From positions 1,426,001 to 1,490,000 of the forward strand of contig NZ_JUGU01000001.1 of NCBI RefSeq assembly GCF_000799465.1: 64,000 bases of DNA, given 5' to 3'. The position numbers were made by a program, and so were the translations under genes. Below the pieces are notes generated by a model, which worked only from the letters and a program-made list of their open reading frames with translations, was not told the origin of the DNA and did no database searches. Positions 3,793 to 63,037 of the stretch are shown piece by piece (positions within the stretch are counted from its first letter, which is position 1; the number at the start of each line of letters is the position of its first letter). Source of the DNA: Psychroserpens sp. Hel_I_66 (lineage in GTDB: Bacteria > Bacteroidota > Bacteroidia > Flavobacteriales > Flavobacteriaceae).

Positions 3793-3977
3793 GATTTAAT
3801 TGGTTTTTGTTTTAAACTACTAATTTGAAAAGCGTTGAGACTACTAATAACCATAGGGATAACTTTGCCATTAACATAGATAAGATATTTCGAGAATTTG
3901 TCTCCTGCTTTCGCAGAAGCTTCGGAAAACTGGGTGGAGAGTAGTCGTTCCCTAAAACGACGAAATAATGTAATCAT
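3789..3977 (-). CDS. Degenerate DUF6090 mini-copy (anchor only)
   Basis: A 62-residue product that looks like a decayed DUF6090 N-terminus. MITLFRRFRERLL replaces MIKFFRKIRQNLL, a 10-residue insertion follows (QFSEASAKAG), and then FSKYLIYVNGKVIPMVISSL lines up with FSKYLLYAIGEIVLVIIGIL of the copy at 2711..3418. The anchor has lost hydrophobicity (lysine and proline within it) and the C-terminal domain is missing. It is the first frame of the minus-strand array and is coupled to the next gene by ATGA. It may be a remnant kept as a leader ORF, or simply a pseudogene. Confidence 0.5.
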   Translation of the reverse strand: MITLFRRFRERLLSTQFSEASAKAGDKFSKYLIYVNGKVIPMVISSLNAFQISSLKQKPIKS

Positions 3978-4090
3978 TTACTTTGGTTAGAAAGTAAATT
4001 AGGTTAATGGTGTAGTTGAGGTTGATTAACTAATTAACTATTTGTCTTTAAAGATATTAAATTGTTACACAGCAAACTATTTAAACATAA

Positions 4091-4119
4091 AAAAAGCGAA
4101 CTTAGTAAGTTCGCTTTTT
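4091..4119. terminator. Perfect A/T-flanked hairpin
   Basis: AAAAAGCGAACTTA is followed almost directly by its reverse complement, giving a stem of up to 14 pairs flanked by A-runs and T-runs on either side. It could terminate transcription in either direction. It lies between the start of the DUF6090 array and the broken gene at 4230..4657, whose own terminator is at 4187..4225, so it is probably a second stop or an upstream boundary. Confidence 0.6.
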
Positions 4120-4186
4120 AAAAATTAAATATCCCATCCTGAAATAAGTTGACATAAAATCGACTTATTATCAAAACCACAGAAAG

Positions 4187-4225
4187 AAAAAAAAAAAAAA
4201 AAAACGAACACAATGTGTTCGTTTT
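4187..4225 (-). terminator. Intrinsic terminator with 18-base T tract
   Basis: AAAACGAACAC (4201-4211) and GTGTTCGTTTT (4215-4225) form an 11-bp stem with a 3-base loop. On the minus strand the stem is followed by a T tract that is 18 bases long (A run at 4187-4204 on the plus strand). It sits just after the stop at 4230 of the broken gene and is a textbook factor-independent terminator for it. Confidence 0.85.
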
Positions 4226-4229
4226 ATAG

Positions 4230-4657
4230 TTAAAATTCTTCTTCAAAGTTTTCATCAAATTTAAATGAATTCATTAGCAACCCATTTTCATTTTTGTAGT
4301 AAATGAAAATAAATCGTAACGCAATTACTTTATATCTTACAAAGTAAACATCTTTATATGCAACATCTCCAAGCTTGAGATGTTTGACTTTAGTAATCCC
4401 TATAGATTTACCAAACCTAGACTCCATTATGTTTAATCATTTTAAAGTCTTTTCTTTAATTAAATCTAATTCTGTCTCTGCTAGAGGCCAATAATCCTTC
4501 ATTTCATCAAATGCTTCGGAAGGCTCATTCTCTCCAAATAACTTAGTCATTCTTTCAGAAAAACTTTCTGAATCCTCTCGGTTTCAAAATATTTATTCTG
4601 TCCATATCCACTGAAACTGAATAATAGAAAAAGCACAAAAATTACTTTTATATTCAT
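4230..4657 (-). pseudogene. Broken secreted/periplasmic protein gene (frameshift plus stop)
   Basis: Three pieces of one gene can be read in order. From 4657 a signal peptide (MNIKVIFVLFLLF, then SGYGQ) leads into NKYFETE and runs out of frame. After a one-base shift near 4590 the frame continues through SFSERMTKLFGENE, AFDEMKDYWPLAETE and LDLIKEKTLK to a TGA. The same frame then reads on without interruption through MESRFGKSIG to EEEF and TAA at 4230. A terminator follows immediately, so the gene once ended here. The last 65 residues could still be made from the internal ATG at 4427. I do not recognise the family; the product would have been a small exported protein of about 140 residues. 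Confidence 0.75.
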
Positions 4658-4666: not shown

Positions 4667-6067
4667 TTAAATATGTAAAGGTCTATCCTCAGTCGCAGCC
4701 AAGGCTGCTTCTTTCATGGCTTCTGCATACGTTGGATGAGCATGTGACATGCGAGAGATATCCTCTGCAGATGCTCTGTACTCCATAGCAACGACAGCTT
4801 CAGCAATTAAATCGGCACAACGTGCGCCAATCATATGTATTCCTAAAACTTCGTCTGTTTTTTTATCGGCTAAGATTTTTACAAATCCATCCAAATCTCC
4901 TCCTGCTCTGGCTCTTCCCAATGCTCTAAACGGAAATTGTCCAGCTTTGTACTCTACTCCATCTGCTTTTAACTCTTCTTCTGTTTTGCCTACTGCAGCA
5001 ACTTCTGGCCAAGTGTAAACCACTCCCGGAATTAAGTTATAATCGATATGAGGTTTCTGTCCTGCTAACGTTTCAGCAACAAAAACACCTTCTTCTTCAG
5101 CCTTATGTGCTAACATCGCACCTTTTACAACATCACCAATGGCGTAAATATTCTTAACTGCGGTCTGTAAATGCTCGTTGACTTCAATTTGTCCGCGATC
5201 TGTTAGTTTCACACCAGCAGCCTCTGCATTTAATCCATCAGTATATGGTTTTCTTCCTACGGAAACCAAGCAATAATCGCCTTTAAACTCTACGATCTCA
5301 CCTTTTTTATTTTCAGCCTTAACAATAACCTCATCACCGTTACGCTCAACAGATTGCACTTTGTGAGACATGTTCATATTGAATTTAGCCTTTTTAAATA
5401 CTTTGTTCAGTTCTTTAGATAACGCAGCATCCATAGTTGGTAAGATTCTATCCATGAATTCAATAACGGTTACCTCTGCACCTAAACGTCTGTAAACCTG
5501 ACCAAGTTCTAAACCAATAACGCCTCCTCCAATCACGATCATGTGCTTAGGGATTTCTTTGAGTTTTAATGCTTCCGTAGACGTAATAATTCGTTCTTTA
5601 TCCAACGTGATAAATGGTAAGTTTGCAGGTTTTGACCCTGTAGCTATGATAATATGTTTAGCTTCGATGTCTTGAGCATCTTTTCCTTCAATTTTAATAT
5701 GGTTTGCATCTATAAAGCTCCCCAGACCTTCAAACACATCAATATTGTTTTTCTTCATTAAAAAATCAATTCCACCAGTAGTTTGATCAACAACCGCTTG
5801 CTTGCGACCAATCATTTTCTCTAGATTGACTTTGATATCACCAGGGATCTCAATCCCATGTTCTTCAAAATGATTTGTTGCCTCCTCGTAATGATGGGAT
5901 GATGCTAATAGGGCTTTACTTGGGATACAGCCTACGTTTAAACACGTTCCGCCAAGTGTAGAATATTTTTCAATAATTGCTGTTTTCATGCCCAATTGTG
6001 CACATCTAATTGCTGCTACATATCCACCAGGTCCAGAACCTATTATTGCTACATCGTATGATTTCAT
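4667..6067 (-). CDS. lpdA: Dihydrolipoyl dehydrogenase (E3)
   Basis: A 466-residue FAD-dependent disulfide oxidoreductase that reoxidises the dihydrolipoyl groups of 2-oxoacid dehydrogenase complexes and the glycine cleavage system, reducing NAD+. The FAD motif GSGPGG is at residues 10-15. The redox pair is C42 and C47 in GGTCLNVGCIP, and the NAD motif is GGGVIGLELG at about 177-186. The C-terminal dimer-interface catalytic motif HAHPTYAEAM is near residue 443. The length is full for the family. It stands alone, without E1/E2 genes nearby, which fits a shared E3. A promoter with both boxes lies upstream at 6112..6139. Confidence 0.96.
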   Translation of the reverse strand: MKSYDVAIIGSGPGGYVAAIRCAQLGMKTAIIEKYSTLGGTCLNVGCIPSKALLASSHHYEEATNHFEEHGIEIPGDIKVNLEKMIGRKQAVVDQTTGGIDFLMKKNNIDVFEGLGSFIDANHIKIEGKDAQDIEAKHIIIATGSKPANLPFITLDKERIITSTEALKLKEIPKHMIVIGGGVIGLELGQVYRRLGAEVTVIEFMDRILPTMDAALSKELNKVFKKAKFNMNMSHKVQSVERNGDEVIVKAENKKGEIVEFKGDYCLVSVGRKPYTDGLNAEAAGVKLTDRGQIEVNEHLQTAVKNIYAIGDVVKGAMLAHKAEEEGVFVAETLAGQKPHIDYNLIPGVVYTWPEVAAVGKTEEELKADGVEYKAGQFPFRALGRARAGGDLDGFVKILADKKTDEVLGIHMIGARCADLIAEAVVAMEYRASAEDISRMSHAHPTYAEAMKEAALAATEDRPLHI

Positions 6068-6139: not shown

Positions 6140-6156
6140 ATGAGTGGAAGCCATCA

Positions 6157-6196: not shown

Positions 6197-6409
6197 ATGA
6201 GTAATCACACGTATAAGAAAATTGAAATTGTGGGTTCTTCGGAAACCTCTAGCGATAATGCTGTTGAAAATGCATTGGCAAAGGCTGCTAAATCTGTTAA
6301 AAACATGAGATGGTTTGAAATCGTAGAATCTAGAGGTCTTATTGGCGATAACGGAAAAGTCTCATACTGGCAAGTGACCGTAAAAATAGGATTTACAATG
6401 GAAGACTAA
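6197..6409 (+). CDS. Dodecin family flavin-binding protein
   Basis: A 70-residue protein of dodecin length. Dodecins form dodecameric shells that store FMN/riboflavin in the cytoplasm. The beta-alpha-beta-beta pattern is visible: YKKIEIVGSS (strand), a helix rich in Ala/Lys (SDNAVENALAKAAKSVKN), MRWFEIVESRG with the tryptophan expected to stack on the flavin ring, and YWQVTVKIGFT as the last strand. It is monocistronic, with its own -7 box and a hairpin after the stop. Acquisition by transfer is not suggested; such genes are common in this group. Confidence 0.9.
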   Translation: MSNHTYKKIEIVGSSETSSDNAVENALAKAAKSVKNMRWFEIVESRGLIGDNGKVSYWQVTVKIGFTMED

Positions 6410-8106: not shown

Positions 8107-8195
8107 CTAATCATAAATTTAATTAAGGGTCCTTACCCTACAGACGCAAATAAACATAAAATGGTTGCCTCAACAATTTTTTCTTCGGAAAATTT

Positions 8196-8822
8196 CTACG
8201 ACGGAAAACCGAGCATGCTGCCCATTCCAACGGTAAATAACCAACAACCATAAATGGCGTGCTCTATGGTTACCAATAGTGTTGATTTTGTCCTTTTATA
8301 TGTGATTGCAAAAAGTATTCCTCCAATAAAAGTAAGGAACATGACGAGCACATTTCCGAAGAATAAATGCGCCAAAGAAAAAAGTGTAGCATTTAAAACA
8401 ATAAAAAGCGTATCATTTTTAAATAACGATTGATAACGTTGGAAAAAGAACGTTCTATAAATCAATTCTTGAGGATATACCGAAAAAACGCTGTAAACAA
8501 AAAGAATAAACAACCATAATAATGGTTTGTTCAACACAACGACATAAAGATTTGGCTTATCCAGAAACCACATGTAGAGCGTTGTAACTATTGCAATACC
8601 TATTAACTGGACGAATGTGTACTTAAAAAACATGCTCCAATTAAGATGTGGCGCAATTTTAAATTTGTTTTTTTCGACCCGCAACAACACGAACAAAACA
8701 TACATAAAACCAAAGATCCCGATACCCATTTTTATCGCTAAGGGATATGTTATGGAGAAACTTAACGGAACTAAAATAAAAATTATAAAAAACTCTGTGA
8801 GCTTGTAAACGTTTGATTGCAT
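8196..8822 (-). CDS. CPBP-type intramembrane protease homologue
   Basis: A 208-residue protein that is almost all membrane spans (about six). Motif 1 reads PQELIYRTFF where the classical CPBP motif has two consecutive glutamates; only the second is kept. Motif 2 is FSLAHLFFGN and motif 3 is TIEHAIYG, supplying the expected histidines. The family includes Rce1-like prenyl-protein proteases and bacteriocin-immunity proteins; the role here is unknown. It is followed by the Lrp gene in head-to-tail order on the same strand, 21 bases away, so the two may share a transcript from the Lrp promoter. Confidence 0.8.
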   Translation of the reverse strand: MQSNVYKLTEFFIIFILVPLSFSITYPLAIKMGIGIFGFMYVLFVLLRVEKNKFKIAPHLNWSMFFKYTFVQLIGIAIVTTLYMWFLDKPNLYVVVLNKPLLWLFILFVYSVFSVYPQELIYRTFFFQRYQSLFKNDTLFIVLNATLFSLAHLFFGNVLVMFLTFIGGILFAITYKRTKSTLLVTIEHAIYGCWLFTVGMGSMLGFPS

Positions 8823-9475: not shown

Positions 9476-10696
9476 ATGGCATTTAAACCAGCAAATAACA
9501 TACAGGATTTACAATACTTTGGAGAGTTTGGAGGCGTTAATCCTTCAATCTCAGATTCGTCAACCTATACCTTTATTTCAGCAAAAACAATGTTTGATAC
9601 GTTTGAGGGAAATGCAGATGGTTGTTATTTATATTCTCGTCACTCCTCACCTTCCAACTTATATTTAGGCGAAGCACTTGCTGCCATGGAAGGGACCGAA
9701 ACTGCAAACGTATCTGCTTCTGGCATGGGAGCTATTACACCTGTTTTAATGCAACTTTGTGGAGCTGGTGATCATATCGTTTCCAGTAGAACAATTTATG
9801 GAGGTACGTATGCTTTCTTAAAAAACTTTACACCTCGATTTAATATTGAAACCTCTTTTGTAGATATAACAAAATTAGATATCGTTGAGGCTGCCATTAC
9901 TAAAAACACGAAGGTTTTATATTGTGAGTCGGTGAGCAATCCACTTTTGGAGGTTGCAGATATTAAAGGCCTTGCTGAGATTGCAAAACGTCACAACTTA
10001 AAGTTAGTGGTAGATAATACCTTTTCCCCATTATCAATCTCTCCTGCAAAATTAGGTGCAGATATAGTGATCCATAGTTTAACAAAATTCATAAATGGCT
10101 CAAGTGATACGGTTGGTGGTGTTGTTTGTGGCACTCAAGAATTTATCAATGATTTGAGAAATGTAAACGATGGAGCTTCTATGCTTTTAGGTTCTACGAT
10201 GGACAGTTTACGATCTGCTTCCGTATTAAAGAACTTGAGAACATTGCACATTAGAATGCAACAACACAGTTTAAATGGCGCATATTTAGCTCAAAAGTTT
10301 GAGCAGGCGGGATTAAAAACCGTTTATCCAGGATTACCATCACATCCATCACATGAGTTGTTCAAATCTATGATGAATGAAAAATACGGATTTGGAGGTA
10401 TGCTCACCATAGACGTTGGTAGCCTCGACAAAGCAAACGAACTCATGGAACTTATGCAAGAGAAAAACCTAGGCTACTTGGCAGTAAGTTTAGGATTTTA
10501 TAAAACCTTATTCTCTGCTCCTGGAAGTTCTACGTCTTCGGAAATTCCTGAAGATGAGCAAAAGGCAATGGGCTTAAGTGATGGGCTAATTCGTTTTTCT
10601 ATTGGACTGGATGCAGATATTGAACGTACTTTTGAAATGATGCGTGCATGTATGGAAGAACTAGAAATTTTAAAAGCTGAGGATGTTTTAGCATAA
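9476..10696 (+). CDS. Cys/Met-metabolism PLP enzyme (cystathionine gamma-synthase / methionine gamma-lyase type)
   Basis: A 406-residue trans-sulfuration family enzyme, started at ATG 9476 (MAFKPANN) because the 21 upstream codons are hydrophobic AT-rich leader unlike the family. Marks are SASGMGAI, the substrate/PLP tyrosine region SSRTIYGGTYAF, VVDNTFSPL and the PLP lysine in IHSLTKFINGSSD. A cysteine typical of Pseudomonas methionine gamma-lyase just after LYG is glycine here (YGGTYAF), so lyase versus synthase cannot be settled. It is divergent from an Lrp/AsnC gene, suggesting amino-acid control, and has a terminator right after the stop. Confidence 0.85.
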   Translation: MAFKPANNIQDLQYFGEFGGVNPSISDSSTYTFISAKTMFDTFEGNADGCYLYSRHSSPSNLYLGEALAAMEGTETANVSASGMGAITPVLMQLCGAGDHIVSSRTIYGGTYAFLKNFTPRFNIETSFVDITKLDIVEAAITKNTKVLYCESVSNPLLEVADIKGLAEIAKRHNLKLVVDNTFSPLSISPAKLGADIVIHSLTKFINGSSDTVGGVVCGTQEFINDLRNVNDGASMLLGSTMDSLRSASVLKNLRTLHIRMQQHSLNGAYLAQKFEQAGLKTVYPGLPSHPSHELFKSMMNEKYGFGGMLTIDVGSLDKANELMELMQEKNLGYLAVSLGFYKTLFSAPGSSTSSEIPEDEQKAMGLSDGLIRFSIGLDADIERTFEMMRACMEELEILKAEDVLA

Positions 10697-10740: not shown

Positions 10741-11761
10741 ATTTTCCTTTAATTCGCTCCCAAATGACATTCAAAGTAAATTCAAGATCGTCTATTTCTG
10801 GAGCAAACGGTTTCATATTTAAGCGATCTTCAGTTTTGTACAATTTTAGATTAAAAACAGGCTTGTAACCTTCTCTGGTTTCAACCAATGGGTAACGTAA
10901 ATCCTTGTAATCATACGCGTTATCATTTAATTGCTCCACATTATAATAACCGTCACTAAACCAAGCTAAAGATTTTAAATCTGCATAACCGTCTTCTTTT
11001 AAATCTCTTTTCTTCGGAAATGTCATCCACTCAGAAAATCTATCCGTTGTATCAAACAATGAGTAATACGCTACTTCGTAAGTGCTATCGGTTTCTGCAA
11101 TTCCGTACCAAAGAATATTATTAAAAATAGAAGGTTGAGCGCTAAACCTTTGATAAACGATTCCTTTTTCAGCTAAAGAATTTTGAAACACACTATCTAT
11201 GTAGAGCTTATTAAAAATGGTAAAAATCATATATACTGAACTTACTCCTACGCCAATCTTGATCCAAAACCTACGTTTATGATGCTCTCTACTATAGAAC
11301 ATCAAAACAATCATACTTAACAAAAAAGGTACAGTATACAGAGGATCTACAACAGCAATATTATTAAATGCAACGCGATAATTTGAAAAAGGAGCAAATA
11401 ATTGTGTGCCATATGGCGTAAAACAGTCTAAAATAGGATGCGTAAATAATGACCAGAAAAATAACAGAATCCAATCTTTTTTTGTGGTTGTGCCTAAACG
11501 ATTTCCGTTATTATACAATTTGTATACAAGCCATCCCAATAAAAATCCAGCCAAAATGGAAAATAAAATAGAGTGCATAAAGCCTCTGTGAAATAGCATA
11601 ATATCAATTTCGTTTGAATAGAATAACCTTCCGAAGAACACATCCAAATCGGGAATCGTCCCTCCAATGGCTCCAAAAAATAAAGCCTTATTCCCTATTT
11701 TACGACCCAAAACAGCTTCTCCACAAGCAGCACCTAAAACAATTTGAGTTAATGAATCCAT
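10739..11761 (-). CDS. Membrane-bound metal-dependent hydrolase (DUF457/YdjM family)
   Basis: A 340-residue protein. The start MDSLTQIVLGAACGEAVLG and IPDLDVFFGRL, FHRGFMHSILF and HPILDCFTPYGTQLF give the Asp/His set conserved in the YdjM (LexA-regulated membrane hydrolase) family. Four or five membrane helices lie between residues 60 and 200. A soluble C-terminal part of about 140 residues follows. Members are predicted inner-membrane metal-dependent hydrolases of unknown substrate. It is transcribed alone, convergent with the PLP enzyme gene and divergent from nhaC. Confidence 0.85.
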   Translation of the reverse strand: MDSLTQIVLGAACGEAVLGRKIGNKALFFGAIGGTIPDLDVFFGRLFYSNEIDIMLFHRGFMHSILFSILAGFLLGWLVYKLYNNGNRLGTTTKKDWILLFFWSLFTHPILDCFTPYGTQLFAPFSNYRVAFNNIAVVDPLYTVPFLLSMIVLMFYSREHHKRRFWIKIGVGVSSVYMIFTIFNKLYIDSVFQNSLAEKGIVYQRFSAQPSIFNNILWYGIAETDSTYEVAYYSLFDTTDRFSEWMTFPKKRDLKEDGYADLKSLAWFSDGYYNVEQLNDNAYDYKDLRYPLVETREGYKPVFNLKLYKTEDRLNMKPFAPEIDDLEFTLNVIWERIKGK

Positions 11762-11862: not shown

Positions 11863-13530
11863 ATGAGCGACGACAAAAATATTTCAGAAATTGAAGCTAA
11901 AAATGAAAATGTTATTGAAAATAAGGAACTTAATTTCTTTGAAGCACTAATTCCTGTTGTGATATTAATGGGCATGCTAGCCTACAATATCTTTTTTGTT
12001 GAAGACCAAGAATGGTTTGGAGGATATACAAATCAAATTATTTTATTACTTGGAGGCGCTGTTGCTGCTGTGGTTGGCTTTTTTAATAAAGTCTCAATAT
12101 CGATTATGCTAAAAGAGGTTTGGGAAAACCTAAAAAGCGTTTTCGTACCAATTATGATTTTGTTTTTGGTTGGTGCACTTGCTGGCACTTGGTTGATTAG
12201 CGGTGTGATACCTGCAATGGTCTATTATGGATTAAAAGTATTGAGTCCTGAGATTTTTCTGCCAGCTTCTGTGATCATTGCTGCTGTTATTTCTATTGCA
12301 ACGGGAAGCTCATGGACTACCTCTGCAACTGTTGGTATTGCGTTGGTTGGCATTGGCACAGCTCTGGGTATTAACCCAGGTATGATTGCTGGTGCTGTAA
12401 TTTCGGGAGCTTATTTTGGTGATAAAATGTCACCTCTAAGTGATACCACAAACTTGGCGCCTGCAATGGCTGGAACCGATTTGTTTACGCACATTAAATA
12501 TATGGCATTGACGACTGTGCCTACGATAGTAATTACTTTGATTATCTTCGGAATAATTAGTGCTTCAATCGATACTTCTGGAAATGCAGATATTTCTCAA
12601 ATTCTTGAAACCATAGATGCTACATTTCATATTACACCTTGGTTGTTTTTAGTTCCTATCGCTGTAGTTGCCTTAATTTTGATGAAAACAAAACCACTTA
12701 TTGCGTTGGGCACAGGTGTTATTTTAGCTATTGTTTTCGCGCTTGTTTTTCAGCCAGATGTTATAGAAAATGTAACGGGATCTAAATCTAAAACTATTGT
12801 AAACTCAGTTTTTACAGATACTAATATTCCTATTGATGATTCCGCATATATAGCAAAACTCAATGACCAAGATATTGAGGCTATCAACAACAATGAAAAT
12901 TTAGAAGCACTTTTAAGTGATGGTGGTATTGAGAAAAACTTCTCCCAAACAGAATTGGAACAAGTTTTTGAAGATGCTAATTATGATCAAAGCACATTAG
13001 CTTTAAAAACCGATAGCTTGAGCAGATTATTAACTATTGATAAACTTAAACAGCTTTTTGGTGCTGGTGGAATGGAAGGAATGCTCTGGACCATTTACCT
13101 CATAATTTGCGCCATGGTTTTTGGAGGTATTATGGATGGTATTGGCGCCTTATCTAGAATAACAAAAGCACTACTTACCGTGGCAACATCTGTATTTGGT
13201 TTATTTGCAAGTACAGTAGCAAGTTGTTTGGGATTAAACATTATTGCATCAGACCAGTACCTGGCTTTGGTAATCCCGGGAAAAATGTTCAAACAAGCTT
13301 ATCACGATAGAGGGCTTGCGCCAGAAAACTTATCTAGAACTCTTGAGGATTCTGGTACAGTAACCTCTGTTTTAATCCCTTGGAACACCTGTGGCGCTTA
13401 TCAATCTGGTGTTTTAGGTGTGGGTGTGGGTGAGTATTTCATGTACGCTATATTTAATTGGTTAAGTCCTTTTACAACTTTAATCTTCGCAGCATTTTCT
13501 ATAAAGATTAGGCAACTCAAGAATAAATGA
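11863..13530 (+). CDS. nhaC: Na+/H+ antiporter, NhaC family
   Basis: A 555-residue polytopic membrane protein exchanging Na+ for H+ at the inner membrane. NhaC-type marks are visible: IATGSSWTTSATVGIALVGI, GAVISGAYFGDKMSPLSDTT and the late LEDSGTVTSVLIPWNTCGAY. The N-terminal 25 residues are acidic and cytoplasmic. A polar stretch of about 100 residues (roughly 300-395, rich in Asn, Asp and Glu) interrupts the membrane part, longer than the loop in many relatives. It is monogenic, with a weak hairpin downstream. Confidence 0.9.
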   Translation: MSDDKNISEIEAKNENVIENKELNFFEALIPVVILMGMLAYNIFFVEDQEWFGGYTNQIILLLGGAVAAVVGFFNKVSISIMLKEVWENLKSVFVPIMILFLVGALAGTWLISGVIPAMVYYGLKVLSPEIFLPASVIIAAVISIATGSSWTTSATVGIALVGIGTALGINPGMIAGAVISGAYFGDKMSPLSDTTNLAPAMAGTDLFTHIKYMALTTVPTIVITLIIFGIISASIDTSGNADISQILETIDATFHITPWLFLVPIAVVALILMKTKPLIALGTGVILAIVFALVFQPDVIENVTGSKSKTIVNSVFTDTNIPIDDSAYIAKLNDQDIEAINNNENLEALLSDGGIEKNFSQTELEQVFEDANYDQSTLALKTDSLSRLLTIDKLKQLFGAGGMEGMLWTIYLIICAMVFGGIMDGIGALSRITKALLTVATSVFGLFASTVASCLGLNIIASDQYLALVIPGKMFKQAYHDRGLAPENLSRTLEDSGTVTSVLIPWNTCGAYQSGVLGVGVGEYFMYAIFNWLSPFTTLIFAAFSIKIRQLKNK

Positions 13531-14398: not shown

Positions 14399-14447
14399 AA
14401 TCCCAAATTCCAAAATGTAATTATTTTTTACTTCGGAATTTGGGATT
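14399..14447 (+). terminator. Long hairpin between peroxiredoxin and thioredoxin genes
   Basis: AATCCCAAATTCC (14399-14411) pairs perfectly with GGAATTTGGGATT (14435-14447) around a 23-base loop. The downstream T run is weak, so it is more likely a partial terminator or mRNA processing/stability element that sets unequal levels of the two products. The right arm contains a copy of the CTTCGGAA octamer. Confidence 0.5.
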
Positions 14448-14459: not shown

Positions 14460-14774
14460 ATGATAAAAGAATTAGAACAAGATAACTTAGCTGAAATAGT
14501 ATCGCAAAATGACACCGTAATTGTACAGTATTCTGCCACTTGGTGTGGAAACTGCAGAATCATGAAACCAAAGTTTAAAAAGTTATCTTCGGAAAATGAG
14601 AACATCACCTTTATTATGGCTGATGCCGAGAAATTTCCGGAATCAAGAAAACTAGCTACAGTTGATAATCTACCAACTTTCGCAACATTTCAAAAAGGAG
14701 CTTTCATAAACCAAACGCAAACGAACAAGTTTGACGTATTAAAAGATTTAGTAAATGAAGTTACCAGTAATTAA
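14460..14774 (+). CDS. Thioredoxin family protein
   Basis: A 104-residue single-domain thioredoxin with active site WCGNC (C29, C32) instead of the usual WCGPC, followed by RIMKPKFKKL; the cis-proline is in DNLPTFATF. It has no signal peptide, so it is cytoplasmic. It lies directly after a 2-Cys peroxiredoxin and overlaps the next gene by 20 bases, which suggests it is the dedicated reductant of that peroxiredoxin. The G-N pair between the cysteines should alter redox potential relative to thioredoxin 1. Confidence 0.9.
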   Translation: MIKELEQDNLAEIVSQNDTVIVQYSATWCGNCRIMKPKFKKLSSENENITFIMADAEKFPESRKLATVDNLPTFATFQKGAFINQTQTNKFDVLKDLVNEVTSN

Positions 14775-19496: not shown

Positions 19497-19533
19497 GTTT
19501 TAAAATTTCCGAAGAGAAAAAAATTGATAAAAT

Positions 19534-21159: not shown

Positions 21160-21235
21160 ACTGTTTTTATTTAAGTTACAAGTTTTTGAGTTTTAGTATT
21201 TCCGAAGAAAATATAATGCTCAAAGTTTCAGGTTG

Positions 21236-27537: not shown

Positions 27538-27630
27538 AACAAGATTGTCATCCTGTTAAACTCTCTTAATTTATAGTTTCTTTCTTCGGAAATTTCTTTT
27601 ATTTGAGAGAACAATCAACAATCTCAACTA

Positions 27631-30044: not shown

Positions 30045-30061
30045 TAGTTCCGAAGAAAATA

Positions 30062-31426: not shown

Positions 31427-31492
31427 ATGTTATGAGTTTTAAAGTTTCCGAAGTAAAAAAACTACGGAAATTACAATTGTGTTAAACTTTAG

Positions 31493-33027: not shown

Positions 33028-33129
33028 CATTTTACATCTTCGGAAAATTTTAGAGAACAAACCGCTTTTTCAAGTCTGGCACGTAATTTGGATTCCTAGT
33101 ATTATAGAAATCAATTAAAATCCAGAATT

Positions 33130-40343: not shown

Positions 40344-40470
40344 TTAGCTTAAAATGTTATTGAATTTTATAATGCCTTGGTACTTACAAATCATAATATC
40401 AAAAACAATTGGTTATTGGTTTGTAACATTTCCGAAGAAAATAGTACCAATACAGAAACATCTATTTATT

Positions 40471-50162: not shown

Positions 50163-50238
50163 CATATTCTTTTCTTCGGAAAAGATAAAACTCAAACAAA
50201 TTGATTCCCATAGTCTTGGGAACGAAAATAAAATTAAA

Positions 50239-51827: not shown

Positions 51828-53066
51828 TTGGCAAAAATTCTTCCATTTAAAGCAGTGAGACCAACGAGAGATAAAGTGAGTTTGGTGGCCTCAAGATCGT
51901 ATCAAACCTATACGCAGGCAGAGCGTGAGGCTCGGTTGGATTATAATCCGTTTTCATTTTTACACATCGTAAATCCTGGCTATAAATATGATCGTGAAAT
52001 TGCAGGTACAGACCGCTATCAATTGGTTAGAAACAGATATTTAGAATTTAAAGAAGACGAGATTTTTGTTCATGATGAAAAACCAAGCTATTACATCTAC
52101 AAAATCGTAGACCGTGACAAACAAGTTTTTAATGGAGTTATCGCAGCTGCCAGTGCAGAGGATTATGAGAACGACATCATCAAAAAACATGAAAACACTA
52201 TTGAATATCGCGAACGTATTTTTAAGGATTATTTAAAAACCGTTGGCTTCAATGCAGAGCCTGTGCTACTCACCTATCCTGATAATACAGTGATTTCAGG
52301 CATCATCAATGACATCCAAAAAGAGCGTGCAGAATTTGAATTCACTACCACTTTTAGAGATACACATTACCTTTGGAAATTGGAAGACTCCAACTTAATT
52401 GCTGTCATTCAAAAAGAATTTGAAGAGATGCCAACCATCTATATTGCAGATGGTCACCACAGATCTGCGTCATCATATTTACTATACAAAGACGAAAAAT
52501 CACAAAATCCAAATCATACCGGAAAAGAATCTTATAATCAATTTATGACATTTTTAATTCCAGAGTCTGAATTGCGAATTCATGAATTCAATCGATTGGT
52601 CAAGGATTTAAACGGATTGACTAAAGAAGAATTCTTGATACAGTTAGACACCATTTTCCGAATAGAAAACAGAGGCATTATGCCCTATAAACCTACAAAA
52701 AAGCACCATTTTAGCATGTATTTAGATGGTGAGTTTTATTCTTTATATCTTCGGAAGACCCTCTATAACTTCAAATCCTCGCTGGATGCATTAGATGCCC
52801 AGATTTTATACAAAACCATTTTACAGCCTATTCTGGGAATTGAGGATTTGCGCAATGATGTTCGCATGGGCTACATCAACGGAAAGAAAGATGTCATCAA
52901 TGTGAAAAGCGCTATCGATTCTGCTGATTATGCGGTTGGGTTTGGTATGGTTCCTGTAGACATTGAAGAAATTAAACAAATTGCCAACGAAGGTCTCAAA
53001 ATGCCTCCAAAAAGCACCTTTATTGAACCAAAACTGAGAAGTGGTGTTACTATATATGAATTTTAA
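51828..53066 (+). CDS. DUF1015 family protein (TTG start)
   Basis: A 412-residue protein whose N-terminus MAKILPFKAVRPTRDKV is the family start, encoded by TTG at 51828 right after the TAA of the M23 gene; no ATG is available before the conserved region. DUF1015 marks: LDYNPFSFLHIVNPG, YIADGHHRSASSYLLYKDE, NSIDALD-like SSLDALDAQILYKTIL and GMVPVDIEEIKQIANEG. The HHR motif suggests an enzymatic or nucleotide-related site, and the family is often next to serine biosynthesis genes, but its biochemistry is not settled. Soluble. Confidence 0.85.
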   Translation: MAKILPFKAVRPTRDKVSLVASRSYQTYTQAEREARLDYNPFSFLHIVNPGYKYDREIAGTDRYQLVRNRYLEFKEDEIFVHDEKPSYYIYKIVDRDKQVFNGVIAAASAEDYENDIIKKHENTIEYRERIFKDYLKTVGFNAEPVLLTYPDNTVISGIINDIQKERAEFEFTTTFRDTHYLWKLEDSNLIAVIQKEFEEMPTIYIADGHHRSASSYLLYKDEKSQNPNHTGKESYNQFMTFLIPESELRIHEFNRLVKDLNGLTKEEFLIQLDTIFRIENRGIMPYKPTKKHHFSMYLDGEFYSLYLRKTLYNFKSSLDALDAQILYKTILQPILGIEDLRNDVRMGYINGKKDVINVKSAIDSADYAVGFGMVPVDIEEIKQIANEGLKMPPKSTFIEPKLRSGVTIYEF

Positions 53067-53134: not shown

Positions 53135-53806
53135 ATGGACATAAAACAAAATCTTAACAGCATAAAAGCCCAACTAGCAGAAGACGTCACGCTTGTTGCT
53201 GTTTCCAAGACAAAACCTGTTTCTGATTTAATGGAAGCTTATAATGCTGGTCAGCGCATTTTTGGTGAAAATAAAATCCAGGAAATGGCAGATAAGTATG
53301 AGGAGATGCCAAAAGATATTGAATGGCACATGATTGGTCACGTGCAGCGAAACAAGGTCAAATATATGGCTGAGTTTGTTGCATTAATTCATGGAGTGGA
53401 TAGTTTTAAATTATTAAAGGAAATCAATAAACAAGCAGCCAAATATGATAGAACTATCAATTGTTTGATTCAAATAAAAATTGCTGAAGAAGACAGCAAA
53501 TTTGGGATGTCTGCCCAAGATGCTAAAAAATTATTGGTTTCCGAAGAATTTAAAAAACTAAATAACGTTAGCATTACTGGACTTATGGGAATGGCAACGT
53601 TTACAGATGACACCAATCAAATTCAACAAGAATTCAAGAAGCTAAAAACGACGTTCGAGGACTTAAAACCATTAGAAACAGCCAACTGCGATTTACAAAT
53701 TATTTCTATGGGAATGAGTGGTGATTATAAAATAGCTATTGACTGTGGAAGTAACATGATTCGTGTTGGAAGTAGTATATTTGGAGCCAGGGATTATGAT
53801 AATTAA
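53135..53806 (+). CDS. PLP homeostasis protein (YggS/PLPBP family)
   Basis: A 223-residue single-domain protein started at ATG 53135 (MDIKQNLNS). PLP-binding lysine in TLVAVSKTKPVSDLM, FGENKIQEM, EWHMIGHVQRNKV, GMATFTDD, MGMSGDYKIAIDCGSNMIRVGSSIFG are the YggS hallmarks. These proteins buffer pyridoxal phosphate and affect amino-acid and vitamin B6 levels; no catalytic activity is known. It follows the DUF1015 gene with a 68-base gap. Confidence 0.95.
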   Translation: MDIKQNLNSIKAQLAEDVTLVAVSKTKPVSDLMEAYNAGQRIFGENKIQEMADKYEEMPKDIEWHMIGHVQRNKVKYMAEFVALIHGVDSFKLLKEINKQAAKYDRTINCLIQIKIAEEDSKFGMSAQDAKKLLVSEEFKKLNNVSITGLMGMATFTDDTNQIQQEFKKLKTTFEDLKPLETANCDLQIISMGMSGDYKIAIDCGSNMIRVGSSIFGARDYDN

Positions 53807-57262: not shown

Positions 57263-58129
57263 ATGGCCACTAAGAATTCTCATCCCCAATGGAAAGATAA
57301 ACTTCATGAAATAATTTATGAGGCAGATACTCCTGCTGGAAAATTATTTGATATAGTACTTCTTATTTTTATTCTCGCCAGTATTGCACTTGTGATGCTT
57401 GAAAGTGTAAACCACATAGACAAAAGATTCCATAACATTCTGTATTATGGAGAATGGCTCGTCACTATTTTATTTACCTTAGAATATATAGCAAGAGTAA
57501 TCACAGTTAGGAAACCTTGGAAATATATATTTAGTTTTTACGGTATTATTGACTTTCTCTCAACAGTACCAATGTATTTATCGTTTTTATTTGTCGGTTC
57601 GCATGCACTTGTCACTTTGAGAGCGCTTCGTTTATTGAGAGTTTTTAGAATTTTAAAACTGGCAAGATACCTAGGGGCTTCAAATCAATTAAAAGATTCC
57701 ATAATTGCGAGTCGTGTAAAAATTCTCGTATTTTTATTCGCAGTAGTCATATCATCAGTAATATTTGGTACGATTATGTATTTGGTAGAAGGTGAAGAAA
57801 ATGGATTCACCAACATCCCTAAAAGTGTCTATTGGTGTATTGTAACACTAACCACGGTTGGTTTTGGTGATATTGCACCTCAAACTGCATTAGGGCAATT
57901 TATCACTTCAATTATCATGATTTTGGGTTATGGTATCATTGCAGTACCAACTGGTATTGTTTCTGCGGAATACGCACGAAGCGCAAACAAAAAAGACAAA
58001 GAAATTGAAGACGGTAAATTACCAGAAGAATTAGAACTCAACACCCAAATCTGCAGTAATTGCCATAAGCAAAATCATAAAGACAAGGCAGAATATTGCT
58101 ATGGTTGCGGTCATAATTTACATATATAA
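57263..58129 (+). CDS. Voltage-gated K+ channel with C-terminal zinc ribbon
   Basis: A 288-residue six-helix channel. S1-S3 span about 27-105. S4 (119-135, LRALRLLRVFRILKLAR) has arginines at every third position as a voltage sensor. The pore carries the filter TTVGFGD at 197-203, and S6 follows (IIMILGYGIIAVPTG). The cytoplasmic tail ends in C264-x2-C267-x11-C279-x2-C282, a zinc-ribbon tail. It should conduct K+ across the inner membrane. The zinc ribbon might couple gating to redox state or metal, but this is a guess. Gap to the preceding gene is 22 bases. Confidence 0.9.
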   Translation: MATKNSHPQWKDKLHEIIYEADTPAGKLFDIVLLIFILASIALVMLESVNHIDKRFHNILYYGEWLVTILFTLEYIARVITVRKPWKYIFSFYGIIDFLSTVPMYLSFLFVGSHALVTLRALRLLRVFRILKLARYLGASNQLKDSIIASRVKILVFLFAVVISSVIFGTIMYLVEGEENGFTNIPKSVYWCIVTLTTVGFGDIAPQTALGQFITSIIMILGYGIIAVPTGIVSAEYARSANKKDKEIEDGKLPEELELNTQICSNCHKQNHKDKAEYCYGCGHNLHI

Positions 58130-58145: not shown

Positions 58146-59072
58146 ATTACCATCAATTCAAATCAACCAATTTTAATATCAATCGTTGGTCCAACAGCAA
58201 TTGGTAAGACTGCTTTAAGTATTAAATTAGCCAATTTTTTTAATACTGAAATTATCTCTGCCGACTCCAGACAGTTTTACAAAGAAATGCAAATAGGTAC
58301 CGCTGCACCAACAAACGAAGAGTTAAAAGCTGCACCACATCATTTCATAAAACATATTTCAATTGATGACTATTACAATGTTGGCAACTTCGAAAATGAC
58401 GCTATCTCAAAAATAGAACAATTGCATGAATCACATAAGGTTGTCATTATGGTTGGTGGTTCGGGACTTTATGTTGATGCGGTTACTAAGGGTCTTGATG
58501 AATTGCCAAAAGTCGATATGGAGATTAGAAATAAACTCAATACAAAACTTAAAACCGACGGACTTGAAGCATTACAATTTCAGCTTAAGAAATTGGATGA
58601 GAAAACCTACAACAAAATTGCACTTGATAATCCGCAACGGGTCATAAGAGCCCTAGAGGTTTGTTTGTCTAGCGGAAAGCCTTATTCTTCTTTTTTAACT
58701 TCGGAAAGCAAAAAAAGGGAATTTAAAACTATAACAGTTGGTCTCACTGCAGATCGGGAAATTATCTATGACCGTATCAACAAACGTGTTGATCTTATGG
58801 TGCAGGATGGATTATTGACAGAAGTTGAGGCACTTTTTCCGAAGAAAGATTTAAATGCATTAAATACTGTTGGTTATAAGGAATTATTTAAATATCTCGA
58901 GGGAGAATGGGACTTGGAATTTGCAGTTTCGGAGATAAAAAAGAACTCAAGACGCTTTGCCAAACGCCAATTAACTTGGTTTAAGAGAAATGGTGAAACG
59001 CTCTGGTTTGACTTTAAAACCGATGTTTTAGATATTGTAGAAGCTATTAACAAAGCGATATTAAAAGCATAA
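58146..59072 (+). CDS. miaA: tRNA dimethylallyltransferase, apparent ATT start
   Basis: A 308-residue enzyme adding a dimethylallyl group to A37 of tRNAs that read codons starting with U. The P-loop is VGPTAIGKT (58188-58211), followed by IISADSRQFYKEMQIGTAAP and RVIRALEV; the C-terminal KRQLTWFKRN is present. The first ATG (58287) lies after the P-loop and would give a dead protein. Between the in-frame TAA at 58137 and the P-loop there is no ATG, GTG or TTG, and ATT at 58146 gives the family-like start TINSNQPILISIVGPT. The upstream K+ channel stops 16 bases before. Confidence 0.88.
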   Translation: MTINSNQPILISIVGPTAIGKTALSIKLANFFNTEIISADSRQFYKEMQIGTAAPTNEELKAAPHHFIKHISIDDYYNVGNFENDAISKIEQLHESHKVVIMVGGSGLYVDAVTKGLDELPKVDMEIRNKLNTKLKTDGLEALQFQLKKLDEKTYNKIALDNPQRVIRALEVCLSSGKPYSSFLTSESKKREFKTITVGLTADREIIYDRINKRVDLMVQDGLLTEVEALFPKKDLNALNTVGYKELFKYLEGEWDLEFAVSEIKKNSRRFAKRQLTWFKRNGETLWFDFKTDVLDIVEAINKAILKA

Positions 59073-59831: not shown

Positions 59832-59834
59832 AAT

Positions 59835-61412
59835 TTATGATATTAATGGCAACCTTATTATAAATGTGCTGCCTTTTCCCTTTTCACTTTCTACTGATAT
59901 ATGACCTTGGTGGTCATCAACTATTCTTTTTACATAAGCCAAGCCTAAACCATGACCTTTTACATTGTGTACATTTCCTGTGTGTTCTCTATAAAATTTC
60001 TCAAACACTTTCTTTTGAACCTGCTTTGACATCCCATTTCCTTTATCTGAAATTTTAATCAAAACGTTATTCCCAACATTTTCAGTATAAACATCAATTT
60101 TTGGTTCATCATCGCTATATTTTATAGCATTATCCAAAATATTGACAATAACATTTGTAAAATGAGTTTCATTAGCCAATACCGTTGGGTCATCTGCATC
60201 GAGATGTGTTTTTACATAACCTCTTCTATCTTCTACTATAAGCTCGACGTGCGTTATCGCATCTTCTATTAAGTCGTGAAGCTCTACCCTTTCCTTACTT
60301 ATATTAAGCTCGTTTTTTTCCAGTTTAGATATTCGTAATACATTTTCAACTTGTGCGTGCATACGTTTATTTTCATCTTTTATCATTTGTAGGTAACGCA
60401 TCACTTTTTCTTGATCACCAATGATCTTAGGATTTTTTATTGAATCTAATGCCAAATTTATTGTAGCAATAGGTGTCTTAAACTCATGGGTCATGTTGTT
60501 AATAAAATCGGTCTTGATTTGTGAAATTTGACGTTGCTTTATTAATTGATAAATGGCGCTAGAATATGCCAGTATAATGATTGATGTAAACAAAACCGAT
60601 AATAAAATCATTCCCAAAATAGAAGATAATAAATACTTTTTACGATCTGGAAAATCTACATATAATGAAAAGTCACTTCTATTTTCATTATCTAAAAAAA
60701 CAGGGATACCTATTGTTGTTTCTGGACTAAGATCAAAATTATCTGATCTTATTTTAGTTGATAAATCTTTATCGTATATGGCATATTCAAATTCGGTTTT
60801 TATACCGTTTACCATAAACTGAGAAGTCAATAACTCTGAAACTTCTTCATTAGAAATACGTTTGTATACTGGGTAATTTTTATATACCGCTCTATAATTC
60901 TTTTTATAGAAACTACGCCCAAGCTCATCCATGGTACTGTAATCCCTGAATGTTTGAATTGGATCTATATTAATTTGACCATCAATGGGACTTCGTTCGA
61001 ACACGTTGGTCTCACTAAAACTTGTAAATCTTTTTATATCTATACTATCTGTACCAATGTCAAAGAACAGTGATGGAACTTTAAAGCTTTCTTCAGAAAT
61101 GATATTTTTAAAACGTGTTGCTTGATTTGTCTCTTCACTAAACGAGTCAAAAATCAAAAGTTGTTTTATTTCACTTGTATCTGGCGTTCTACCATTTTTA
61201 ATAACCTCTTTGTATAATCTATCATAGCTCAATAATTCTTTATCTTCAATTGCTTTAGAGACTAAACTTAAAGAGCGAATAACGTCTGAGGTAAATTGCT
61301 TTTCCTCATTTTTTAACGTGTTGTTAATAAAATATGCTTGAACGAATATAATCCCAATGAGAGATAGACTCATCAAGACCACCAATAGAATGAATAGCTT
61401 TTTACCCATCAT
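59835..61412 (-). CDS. Sensor histidine kinase
   Basis: A 525-residue membrane kinase. The first membrane helix is at about 7-29 and the second at about 262-285, with a periplasmic sensor domain of about 230 residues between them. The cytoplasmic part has the HisKA phospho-histidine H309 in NNMTHEFKTPIATI and an HATPase_c with NILDNAIKYS, ISDKGNGM and GHGLGLAYVKRI. No HAMP or PAS motif is obvious. It is cotranscribed with the response regulator (3-base gap) and lies after coaE in the same direction (60-base gap). Confidence 0.93.
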   Translation of the reverse strand: MMGKKLFILLVVLMSLSLIGIIFVQAYFINNTLKNEEKQFTSDVIRSLSLVSKAIEDKELLSYDRLYKEVIKNGRTPDTSEIKQLLIFDSFSEETNQATRFKNIISEESFKVPSLFFDIGTDSIDIKRFTSFSETNVFERSPIDGQINIDPIQTFRDYSTMDELGRSFYKKNYRAVYKNYPVYKRISNEEVSELLTSQFMVNGIKTEFEYAIYDKDLSTKIRSDNFDLSPETTIGIPVFLDNENRSDFSLYVDFPDRKKYLLSSILGMILLSVLFTSIIILAYSSAIYQLIKQRQISQIKTDFINNMTHEFKTPIATINLALDSIKNPKIIGDQEKVMRYLQMIKDENKRMHAQVENVLRISKLEKNELNISKERVELHDLIEDAITHVELIVEDRRGYVKTHLDADDPTVLANETHFTNVIVNILDNAIKYSDDEPKIDVYTENVGNNVLIKISDKGNGMSKQVQKKVFEKFYREHTGNVHNVKGHGLGLAYVKRIVDDHQGHISVESEKGKGSTFIIRLPLIS

Positions 61413-61472
61413 CCAAATTTAATAGTTTAACATTTAGTATGATTGCTGTTTAACCTTACATTAACAAATATG

Positions 61473-62072
61473 TTAAATTTTTGTTTTTGCAATTAATTTC
61501 AGTAGAGATTTATGTGTATTTATGACTTGATCTTGTGTGCTTTCAATATCATTATTTATGATAACAAAATGTGATTTTTTTATTTTTTCCTCGTCACTAA
61601 CTTGATTATTTATTATAGCCTCAATTTTTGATTTAGAAGAATTATCCCTTTTGATAACTCGGTTTATGCGCTCTTGCTTGTCTGCAGTAACCGTTATGAT
61701 ATAATCATATTTAGATTCTTGTTTGTGTTCAAAAATTATTGCTGCTTCTTTAATGACATAGGGTGAATTTTGTTTCTTACACCAACGCTTAAAATGAGAA
61801 GCAACTTTTGGGTGAACAATGGCATTTATCTTATTTAAAAAAGATGAGTCATTAAAGATTTTTTCAGAAATTAAGGATTTATTAAGCTTATTGTTTTCAT
61901 AAACATTATCTCCAAACAATTCAATTAATCTTCTCTTAATAATTTTAGAAGTAACCATTAAATTCTTAGCTTCAACGTCTGCTATATAAATAGGAATATC
62001 TAATTGTTTAAAAAAATTAGCTACGGTTGTTTTACCACTTCCTATTCCGCCTGTAAGACCAACTATAATCAT
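61473..62072 (-). CDS. coaE: Dephospho-CoA kinase
   Basis: A 199-residue kinase of the last step of coenzyme A synthesis. P-loop GLTGGIGSGKTTVAN near residues 5-19, IYIADVEAKNLM and the lid region RINRVIKRDNSS are intact. It overlaps the upstream YbbR-like gene by 4 bases (ATGA), so translation is coupled. In Flavobacteriia coaE commonly sits in this location after the YbbR gene; I rely on memory for that. Confidence 0.95.
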   Translation of the reverse strand: MIIVGLTGGIGSGKTTVANFFKQLDIPIYIADVEAKNLMVTSKIIKRRLIELFGDNVYENNKLNKSLISEKIFNDSSFLNKINAIVHPKVASHFKRWCKKQNSPYVIKEAAIIFEHKQESKYDYIITVTADKQERINRVIKRDNSSKSKIEAIINNQVSDEEKIKKSHFVIINNDIESTQDQVINTHKSLLKLIAKTKI

Positions 62073-63037
62073 TTTACTATAATGTATTCAATTTTATTTT
62101 GTTTCATATTGGCAGATTTCACTTTATCACTATTTACAATAAGCTTTGGTTTGAAAAAAGTTTTTTCAGTATTTATAACATCATTGTAATCACATTCAAT
62201 CTTAAAATCTGATGCTTTTACGTCCTTATAATCCTCTAAACTCAAGTAGTATGAAACTTTTATTTGCTTCGGAAAGTAATTAATAACAACGTCATTAGGC
62301 AAATTCAACAAAGTGACAGGTATATCAACTGTACCCTCAGTGAATTTTTCCACTTTTGCTTTGATTTTTATATTGTCTTGTGATAGTTTTAAATTTTCCG
62401 AAGTTTTTGAAAAATCCAATGCCAAACTAGAGTTTACACTTGTTTTTAAGTCCTCAAGATTCAATGTCTCGGTTTCTACAAATTCTATAGTATTGACTTC
62501 AGCTAAAGGACCAATAACCTTGACAGAATCTGGTATAATTTCAATCCCTTTTAGAGAATCATAACCAGAAGCAAAATTAATACTGGAATTTAATACCACA
62601 GGTACTTTTTTAACACTTAATGTTCCAAAAGGTAAAATTAAAGAATCTGGCTTTATAGAAATGACATCTACCGATTTTCCTAACTTTTGCCTAAAATCGT
62701 AGATCCCATTATTAGCTAACCAAACATAATTGTTGTCATTGTCCTTGGCAATTTTTTTAAAATCCAGCTCATAATCCTGATTATAGAAATAATAAGAGAG
62801 CAGCTTAAAACCATAAGTAGAAACAGTGACATCTACACTTGGCAATGTGTCTAGGTTAATTATATTTTTTTCTGGAAGGTTTTTATAGGTAACAGTAAAT
62901 GGTATGGTCTCAACATAAGTCTCAGACAATTTTGTCATCAATAAAATAAATAAAGACAATAAAAAGAATATCCCAAAAACGTTTAGTTTTTTGTTTTTTA
63001 ACGATTGTAGAAATTTTTTATATAAACTATTTAACAT
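62069..63037 (-). CDS. YbbR-like domain protein
   Basis: A 322-residue protein anchored by one N-terminal helix (LNVFGIFFLLSLFILLM at about 19-35). The rest is periplasmic with two or three YbbR-type beta domains (VETIPFTVTYKNLPEK, DVTVSTYGFKLLSYYF, VKKVPVVLNSSI, TVDIPVTLLNLP). YbbR proteins in other bacteria are linked to c-di-AMP cyclase control, but here it lies between a glycosyltransferase and coaE. It overlaps the glycosyltransferase gene by 11 bases and coaE by 4. Confidence 0.88.
   Translation of the reverse strand: MLNSLYKKFLQSLKNKKLNVFGIFFLLSLFILLMTKLSETYVETIPFTVTYKNLPEKNIINLDTLPSVDVTVSTYGFKLLSYYFYNQDYELDFKKIAKDNDNNYVWLANNGIYDFRQKLGKSVDVISIKPDSLILPFGTLSVKKVPVVLNSSINFASGYDSLKGIEIIPDSVKVIGPLAEVNTIEFVETETLNLEDLKTSVNSSLALDFSKTSENLKLSQDNIKIKAKVEKFTEGTVDIPVTLLNLPNDVVINYFPKQIKVSYYLSLEDYKDVKASDFKIECDYNDVINTEKTFFKPKLIVNSDKVKSANMKQNKIEYIIVK

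Follow-up and report, generated by a model that had tools for sequence, protein, structure and literature searches.

A frequent octamer of Psychroserpens and other Flavobacteriaceae as a probable uptake sequence of natural transformation

Results

The octamer TTCCGAAG, which is scattered in great excess over the chromosome of Psychroserpens sp. Hel_I_66, probably serves a natural-transformation system of the Flavobacteriaceae as its uptake sequence (we put the probability of this reading at about 0.75). It was noticed in a stretch of 64 kb (bases 1,426,001–1,490,000 of the single-contig genome of 3,842,990 bases; hereafter the window), where an original prediction made from the letters of the DNA saw about 48 copies, 25 in one orientation and 23 in the other, against one or two expected. 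An exact count gave 49 copies, 24 on the plus and 25 on the minus strand, and 100 dinucleotide-preserving shuffles of the window contained a mean of 1.52 and never more than 5. TTCCGAAG is also the highest-scoring octamer of the window under a second-order Markov model. In the whole genome (3.84 Mb) it is found 2,174 times (1,089 on the plus and 1,085 on the minus strand, or 566/Mb), and the same word reversed without complementing, which served as a control, 118 times (62 and 56). Two samples were used for further statistics: 464 kb, composed of the window and 20 spread stretches, and 704 kb, composed of the window and 32 stretches of 20 kb. In the former TTCCGAAG ranks first among octamers, with 294 copies observed against 12.7 expected from a third-order Markov model, and the other leading octamers are mostly its shifted or one-letter forms. 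Thus the excess over a Markov expectation, on which the original prediction depended, is real, and strong genome-wide over-representation of this kind is one of the features that define the class of uptake signal sequences (USS) and DNA uptake sequences (DUS).

The consensus can be written as T-TTCCG[A, less often C or T]AG followed, on one side only, by about nine A-rich positions. In the 464-kb sample the base preceding TTCCGAAG is T in 64% of copies but seldom G (2%), and on the 3′ side A accounts for 54–71% over positions +8 to +13. Among single-letter changes of the core two stand out in the same sample, both at position 6: TTCCGCAG (89 observed, 6.0 expected) and TTCCGTAG (72 observed, 6.6 expected). 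An apparent third variant, TTCGGAAG, is largely the core itself, since it is the complement of CTTCCGAA. In the 704 kb, 435 exact copies of TTCCGAAG were accompanied by 120 copies of TTCCGCAG, 100 of TTCCGTAG and 20 of TTCCGGAG; the A-rich flank is kept there by the copies of TTCCGCAG and TTCCGTAG, which makes both look like tolerated forms of the core rather than chance occurrences. The longer context TTTCTTCGGAAA, in which many copies had been described as embedded, is carried exactly by 11 of the 49 window copies but is not supported as the unit: the real context consists of T at position −1 and the A-rich tract on the 3′ side.

With 55 of 62 open reading frames (ORFs) kept, 37 of the 49 window copies fall inside ORFs and 12 outside. 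Nine of the ten copies initially listed as intergenic are so placed, and the remaining one, at 40430, is located within ORF 40354–41331. In the 704 kb, 381 copies lie within ORFs and 53 in the DNA separating them, with 1 more straddling a boundary, the density being 0.60/kb in coding and 0.80/kb in non-coding DNA (a slight intergenic excess, P 0.048). Copies in genes occupy mixed frames, in line with what had been seen in the window, and are directed as 175 sense and 206 antisense. Synonymous-codon shuffling of the coding DNA gave 17.8 expected copies against 382 real ones; neither codon usage nor, as was supposed from the beginning, protein sequence explains the word. Its presence in both coding and non-coding DNA is a further property of the USS/DUS class. 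USS occur on both strands, in genes and in intergenic DNA.

Gaps between copies are distributed exponentially (coefficient of variation 0.95 in the 704-kb sample), the longest of them being 7.4 kb. Two cold gaps had been pointed out in the window, one covering the DUF6090 genes and the other 53,547–58,698. Neither contains an exact copy, with a one-letter variant at 57963, but the gaps need no explanation, because spacing is random. Relative to replication, the 704-kb sample has 218 leading and 217 lagging copies, GC skew having been used to distinguish the arms of the chromosome. The equal orientation, used earlier as an argument against an FtsK-orienting site, therefore persists by this measure too, and occurrence in both orientations without replication polarity is again characteristic of USS and DUS.

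A genome was called motif-rich if it contained 150 copies/Mb or more and the core was at least three times as frequent in it as the reversed control. The closest named relatives of the strain, by one window protein, are Arcticiflavibacter luteus, Psychroserpens damuponensis and isolate 3-2166-J, and on the strength of these the surveyed family was taken to be the Flavobacteriaceae. Motif-rich were 11 of 23 genomes in the genus sample and 30 of 397 in the family, the latter belonging to 19 of 237 genera (35 of 397 exceed 150/Mb alone; 54 genome rows of this survey were tabulated and the remainder gone through by eye), with the highest density of 705/Mb in genome G322. Outside the family none of 334 genomes reached 150/Mb (345 were drawn from the class and gone through by eye), and the maximum was 142/Mb in G673. 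For 32 genomes with a ratio of at least 3 among the 54 rows, the largest strand difference was 1.4 standard deviations, as estimated from whole-genome forward and reverse counts only. When seven motif-rich genomes from six other genera were pooled, G preceded the core in 5% of copies and A occupied positions +9 and +10 in about 60%; TTCCGAAG scored highest of all octamers in five of these genomes and ranked first or second in the remaining two. The reversed control GAAGCCTT is nearly absent from G415 (5 copies) and G446 (0 copies), perhaps by restriction avoidance, and core/control ratios of these two genomes are inflated because of that.

The window was then aligned to 15 relatives, 5 motif-rich and 10 motif-poor. 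Identical were 33 of 68 aligned sites in the motif-rich relatives, where octamers of equal G+C gave 11–17%, and 9 of 98 in the motif-poor ones, where such octamers gave 9–11%. The CpG-matched background identity was 10.5% and 6.7%, respectively, and overall identity was alike (76–80% vs 74–77%). The Fisher value for the difference between rich and poor relatives, 1e-8, may serve only as a guide, because the comparisons share sites and ancestry. The motif-rich P. algicola keeps 7 of 12 sites, though in a tree of one protein it is nested among motif-poor lineages. Based on these comparisons one can assume, as the simplest reading, that the motif is ancestral, being maintained in some lineages and decaying in others.

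Two of the 32 sampled 20-kb stretches are far under the mean of 12.4 copies. One of them (L180, genome positions 1,805,001–1,825,000) has no TTCCGAAG in its 20 kb (P 4e-6 for that stretch) and bears a defence island with hsdR, hsdS and hsdM of a type I restriction-modification (R-M) system, a SIR2 protein and an AbiEi homologue. The other (L107) contains 2 copies in 20 kb (P 4e-4) and is island-like, with ParB and DUF932 proteins and with efflux and sulfur-transport genes. Judged by gene content, both look like acquired DNA. Rarity of the word in recently acquired DNA is only suggested by these two stretches, since they were picked post hoc for being cold and not in a planned test.

Eight genes essential for transformation were revealed by a transposon screen in Riemerella anatipestifer. 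According to the consulted part of PMC8459023 they encode ComEC, DprA, ComF, RecA, an outer-membrane protein with a carboxypeptidase-like domain, a DUF5689/choice-of-anchor J protein whose gene adjoins that of the outer-membrane protein, an HHH protein and a DUF1343 protein, with no pilus genes among the eight. By domain only, a Riemerella-type set is present in the genome of the window: ComEC at 3,708,133, DprA at 3,032,747, a 291-aa HHH protein (ComEA-like) at 232,427 and the outer-membrane pair at about 2,728,489–2,732,831, where a 950-aa CarboxypepD_reg protein is followed by a lipoprotein with DUF5689 and choice-of-anchor J domains. A PilB-type ATPase (PF00437) had no match above the cut-off in this genome, one weak match being registered in ClpB, and pilins were not searched for. 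As a predictor of the word the type IV pilus was rejected: PF00437 exceeded the cut-off in 13 of 57 genomes; in the genus such a match was present in 4 of the 11 motif-rich genomes and 7 of the 12 motif-poor ones, with no association.

ComEC was matched in 354 of 397 family genomes (316 of 330 high-quality ones) and in 28 of the 30 strongly motif-rich genomes. A suggestive link between ComEC and the motif is provided by two congeners: G075, without ComEC and the 290-aa HHH protein, is motif-poor (91 copies vs 209 of the control), and G300, with ComEC, has 516 copies vs 219 of the control. Such a link cannot reach significance, because just 14 of 330 genomes are without ComEC. A second DUF5689 surface protein, supplied with a type IX secretion system (T9SS) tail, is found in 8 of 23 genus genomes, all eight motif-rich, and this association within the genus is probably due to descent. 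As a general receptor the protein was rejected: in a test set of 30 genomes with core/control of at least 3 and 30 genomes with about 2 or less, strong matches (E below 1e-60) were present in 11 and 4, respectively; with the genus of the window left aside, they were present in 4 of 22 rich genomes and 4 of 27 poor ones.

Two neighbouring-gene arrangements were also registered. In stretch L164 an Exo_endo_phos_3 nuclease-family gene (5279–6349, minus strand) lies beside the outer-membrane pair described above, the putative DNA-import pair, is divergent from it and possibly encodes its DNA-processing partner. In stretch L163 a T9SS-sorted surface protein (9036–10697, minus strand; genome ~3,321,039–3,322,697) is encoded beside a LuxE-like gene; genus-mates have proteins in which this linker and sorting tail accompany another middle domain, and at least three of these proteins (L201, L208, L209) are also encoded beside a LuxE-like gene, which suggests domain swapping at one locus.

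No word matching the abundance of the core in motif-rich genomes (20–48 copies per 60 kb) was found in six motif-poor genomes (G059, G070, G103, G112, G165 and G069, 60 kb each). Some words of these samples scored equally against expectation, for instance CTCAAGAA in G112 (12 one-kb bins vs 1.4), which faded at 260 kb (27 vs 6.0). At this depth TGCCGAAA (28 vs 3.4) and AGCCGAAA (24 vs 3.3) combine into [A/T]GCCGAAA, with 52 copies, 24 and 28 by strand, in 13 of 13 stretches (L278–L280 and L290–L299), about 7 being expected. CCGAA is common to this word and TTCCGAAG at the same offset, and a second dialect around CCGAA is possible in G112, as a lead and not a finding. Against it, the unrelated CGCCACCA is equally over-represented in G112 (31 bins vs 4.5), no A-rich tract follows [A/T]GCCGAAA in the 260 kb, and nothing similar was seen in G165, the second deep sample.

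Discussion

Density, strands, placement, spacing, variants, flank, patchiness, maintenance, absence from an island and the transformation genes all favour an uptake sequence, the role that the original prediction had listed first. We infer that the word acts in uptake and accumulates by molecular drive, a Riemerella-type machine being the importer. A surface receptor would bind free DNA at the word, import would thus favour DNA of the same lineage, which would then be recombined into the chromosome, and fragments with the word would displace alleles without it. Since word-bearing fragments displace word-less alleles, copies would build up wherever they are tolerated, on both strands, in genes and between them, and in a lineage losing the preference they would decay at the neutral rate. 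The importer may well be pilus-independent, with the receptor sitting on it.

Several facts weigh against this interpretation. The uptake-sequence systems known so far depend on type IV pili, and here no match to the T2SSE ATPase exceeded the cut-off. Two of the 30 motif-rich genomes, G246 and G429, have no ComEC match, but they are 68% and 79% complete (the absence in G429 was read from the match list, since 23 of the 43 unmatched genomes were not itemised). ComEC and the HHH protein are present in many unenriched genomes, and the tested genes do not predict the motif; being common to motif-rich and motif-poor genomes, the machinery genes may therefore explain competence, not the word. The receptor candidate that was tested, the second DUF5689 protein, failed family-wide, and both island stretches were chosen for examination because they were cold. 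In the literature searched there is no uptake or transformation experiment for these species.

Other roles of the word have to be considered. Being short, non-palindromic, very frequent and present in genes, it could steer RecBCD/AddAB as a Chi-like hot spot or FtsK as a KOPS-like polar site. The Chi and KOPS sites known so far favour the leading strand, whereas TTCCGAAG is divided almost evenly between leading and lagging copies and its strand differences in 32 genomes do not exceed 1.4 standard deviations; the lack of replication polarity argues against both functions, which we consider very improbable. Genome-wide, strand-neutral occurrence and maintenance in some lineages would also suit a chromosome-organising or repair mark, that is a landmark for a nucleoid protein, an SMC loader or mismatch repair at which selection keeps thousands of sites, and absence from a recent island would fit too. 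A structural role is expected to be conserved, whereas the word is patchy among close relatives and its identity falls to the background level in motif-poor ones; spacing is random, and no regional bias is seen beyond the two cold stretches. A mark of this kind is unlikely, although it deserves more credit than the remaining alternatives.

As an asymmetric word of suitable length, TTCCGAAG might be the target of a methyltransferase (type I, IIG or III, or BREX-like), with the excess protecting self DNA, and a type I R-M locus does exist in the genome. This locus sits, however, in the word-free island, whereas the word is common to 19 genera, and restriction targets are typically avoided in genomes rather than amplified, which renders a modification or defence mark quite improbable. 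At the level of RNA, the complement of TTCCGAAG contains CTTCGG, which is the UUCG tetraloop motif, and two complementary bases flank it on each side in 47% of copies, as would be expected for a C(UUCG)G hairpin serving as a terminator or processing site. But AA follows CTTCGG in 435 of 585 cases of the 704 kb, any other pair in at most 31, and flanks are complementary in just 7% of the other 150 CTTCGG; copies lie mostly inside genes with sense and antisense about equal. Because of this prevailing AA and the rare complementarity elsewhere, the hairpin is hardly credible.

If TTCCGAAG is an uptake sequence, as we believe, it is comparable with Pasteurellaceae USS (Hin-USS and Apl-USS) in having a short non-palindromic core, hundreds of copies per Mb, a one-sided AT-rich flank and family-wide occurrence with varying strength (consulted part of PMC12616744, which gives about 500–800/Mb of a 9-mer for Hin-USS genomes). 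H. influenzae contains 1,471 USS copies, as stated in the part of PMC1939737 consulted. Unlike USS with the core AAGTGCGGT, the word belongs to a different phylum, and its A-rich tract directly adjoins the core; in USS the AT-rich DNA downstream is split into two discontinuous regions. TTCCGAAG also differs from the USS cores and the inner core of DUS as listed in the same part of PMC12616744. Type IV pilus machinery with a minor-pilin receptor is another point of difference, since PF00437 has no match above the cut-off in the window's genome (pilins were not searched for), and the uptake role is here a predicted one. With Neisseriaceae DUS, whose receptor is ComP, TTCCGAAG shares very high copy number, tolerated positions and lineage-linked presence (consulted part of PMC3630211, where biased transformation and recombination are named the most plausible hypothesis for DUS). 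In contrast, DUS is a continuous 10–12-mer with eight dialects, and TTCCGAAG is one core in 19 genera. Thus the core sequence and the type IV pilus set TTCCGAAG apart from the known USS and DUS families, and a pilin receptor would not be expected because of the missing PilB. The system apparently works like USS/DUS through a pilus-independent machine.

The likeness to Riemerella consists in the CarboxypepD_reg and DUF5689/choice-of-anchor J pair, the HHH protein, ComEC and DprA, with orthology judged by domains. The difference is that in the consulted part of PMC7965970 the k-mer tables of R. anatipestifer, R. columbina and F. johnsoniae contain no words other than A-rich ones. The same part reports that R. 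columbina prefers its own DNA with no such word listed, and the phenotype is therefore known in the wider group, the word is not. In the literature searched, mainly openly accessible titles and abstract openings, nothing was found that describes an uptake word for Bacteroidota.

Nowhere is the marking of a bacterium's own DNA for sex clearer than in uptake sequences. The source parts consulted describe them in Neisseriaceae and Pasteurellaceae, two families that take up DNA by means of pili. If our reading is true, an uptake word was invented independently, in a genome without a pilus motor. It would point to transforming species among marine Flavobacteriaceae; adding it to donor DNA would give a handle on species that are hard to engineer, and many close pairs with and without the motif would allow spread by drive to be tested against selection. 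Counting the word is a one-line test in any genome. A bolder version, to which we give somewhat less than an even chance, would make TTCCGAAG the first uptake sequence of Bacteroidota and the first with an importer other than the type IV pilus (a SusCD-like outer-membrane channel with a DNA-binding DUF5689 lipoprotein reading TTCCGAAG), ancestral in Flavobacteriaceae, repeatedly lost, weakened or shifted to CCGAA dialects, and sexually isolating close species.

Sites and other features of the window

Table 1. Positions of the core and of its two frequent variants in window coordinates. Core rows are exact matches to TTCCGAAG; "outside ORFs" refers to the 55 ORFs kept; "identical" gives conservation in the motif-rich relatives aligning at the site.
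Element	Position	Strand	Remark
core TTCCGAAG	3920..3927	-	exact match
core TTCCGAAG	4514..4521	-	exact match
core TTCCGAAG	6237..6244	-	exact match
core TTCCGAAG, outside ORFs	8183..8190	-	exact match
core TTCCGAAG	8354..8361	+	exact match
core TTCCGAAG	10536..10543	-	exact match
core TTCCGAAG	11012..11019	-	exact match
core TTCCGAAG	11629..11636	+	exact match
core TTCCGAAG	12546..12553	-	exact match
core TTCCGAAG, outside ORFs	14431..14438	-	exact match
core TTCCGAAG	14587..14594	-	exact match
core TTCCGAAG	15134..15141	+	exact match
core TTCCGAAG	16511..16518	-	exact match
core TTCCGAAG	16544..16551	-	exact match
core TTCCGAAG	17029..17036	+	exact match
core TTCCGAAG, outside ORFs	19507..19514	+	exact match
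core TTCCGAAG, outside ORFs	21200..21207	+	exact match
core TTCCGAAG	21986..21993	-	exact match
core TTCCGAAG	25158..25165	+	exact match
core TTCCGAAG, outside ORFs	27584..27591	-	exact match
core TTCCGAAG	29453..29460	-	exact match
core TTCCGAAG, outside ORFs	30048..30055	+	exact match
core TTCCGAAG	30562..30569	-	exact match
core TTCCGAAG, outside ORFs	31446..31453	+	exact match
core TTCCGAAG, outside ORFs	33038..33045	-	exact match
core TTCCGAAG	33500..33507	-	exact match
core TTCCGAAG	33570..33577	+	exact match
core TTCCGAAG	38148..38155	+	exact match
core TTCCGAAG	38790..38797	-	exact match
core TTCCGAAG	39116..39123	+	exact match
core TTCCGAAG	39747..39754	-	exact match; identical in 3/3
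core TTCCGAAG	40430..40437	+	exact match
core TTCCGAAG	42628..42635	+	exact match
core TTCCGAAG	42781..42788	+	exact match
core TTCCGAAG	43499..43506	-	exact match; identical in 3/3
core TTCCGAAG	44657..44664	+	exact match
core TTCCGAAG	45335..45342	-	exact match
core TTCCGAAG	45500..45507	+	exact match
core TTCCGAAG	46855..46862	+	exact match
core TTCCGAAG	46941..46948	+	exact match
core TTCCGAAG, outside ORFs	50174..50181	-	exact match; identical in 3/3
core TTCCGAAG	50409..50416	+	exact match
core TTCCGAAG	51314..51321	+	exact match; identical in 4/4
core TTCCGAAG	52749..52756	-	exact match
core TTCCGAAG	53539..53546	+	exact match
core TTCCGAAG	58699..58706	-	exact match
core TTCCGAAG	58837..58844	+	exact match
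core TTCCGAAG	62267..62274	-	exact match
core TTCCGAAG	62396..62403	+	exact match
variant TTCCGCAG	16046..16053	+	
variant TTCCGCAG	16156..16163	+	
variant TTCCGCAG	23362..23369	+	
variant TTCCGCAG	24927..24934	-	
variant TTCCGCAG	29485..29492	-	
variant TTCCGCAG	33731..33738	+	
variant TTCCGCAG	45196..45203	-	
variant TTCCGCAG	47596..47603	+	
variant TTCCGCAG	57963..57970	-	
variant TTCCGTAG	5257..5264	-	
variant TTCCGTAG	5573..5580	+	
variant TTCCGTAG	24339..24346	-	
variant TTCCGTAG	25500..25507	-	
variant TTCCGTAG	29699..29706	-	
variant TTCCGTAG	31462..31469	-	
variant TTCCGTAG	35865..35872	+	
variant TTCCGTAG	37020..37027	-	
variant TTCCGTAG	37044..37051	-	
variant TTCCGTAG	39696..39703	+	

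The DUF6090 matches of the window belong to three adjoining genes at 348–2646, in a low-GC stretch, and the next ORF after them (2711–3418) has no Pfam match. A Bacteroidales small signal recognition particle (SRP) RNA gene at 24688–24794 (minus strand) is the sole Rfam match of the window at the gathering threshold.

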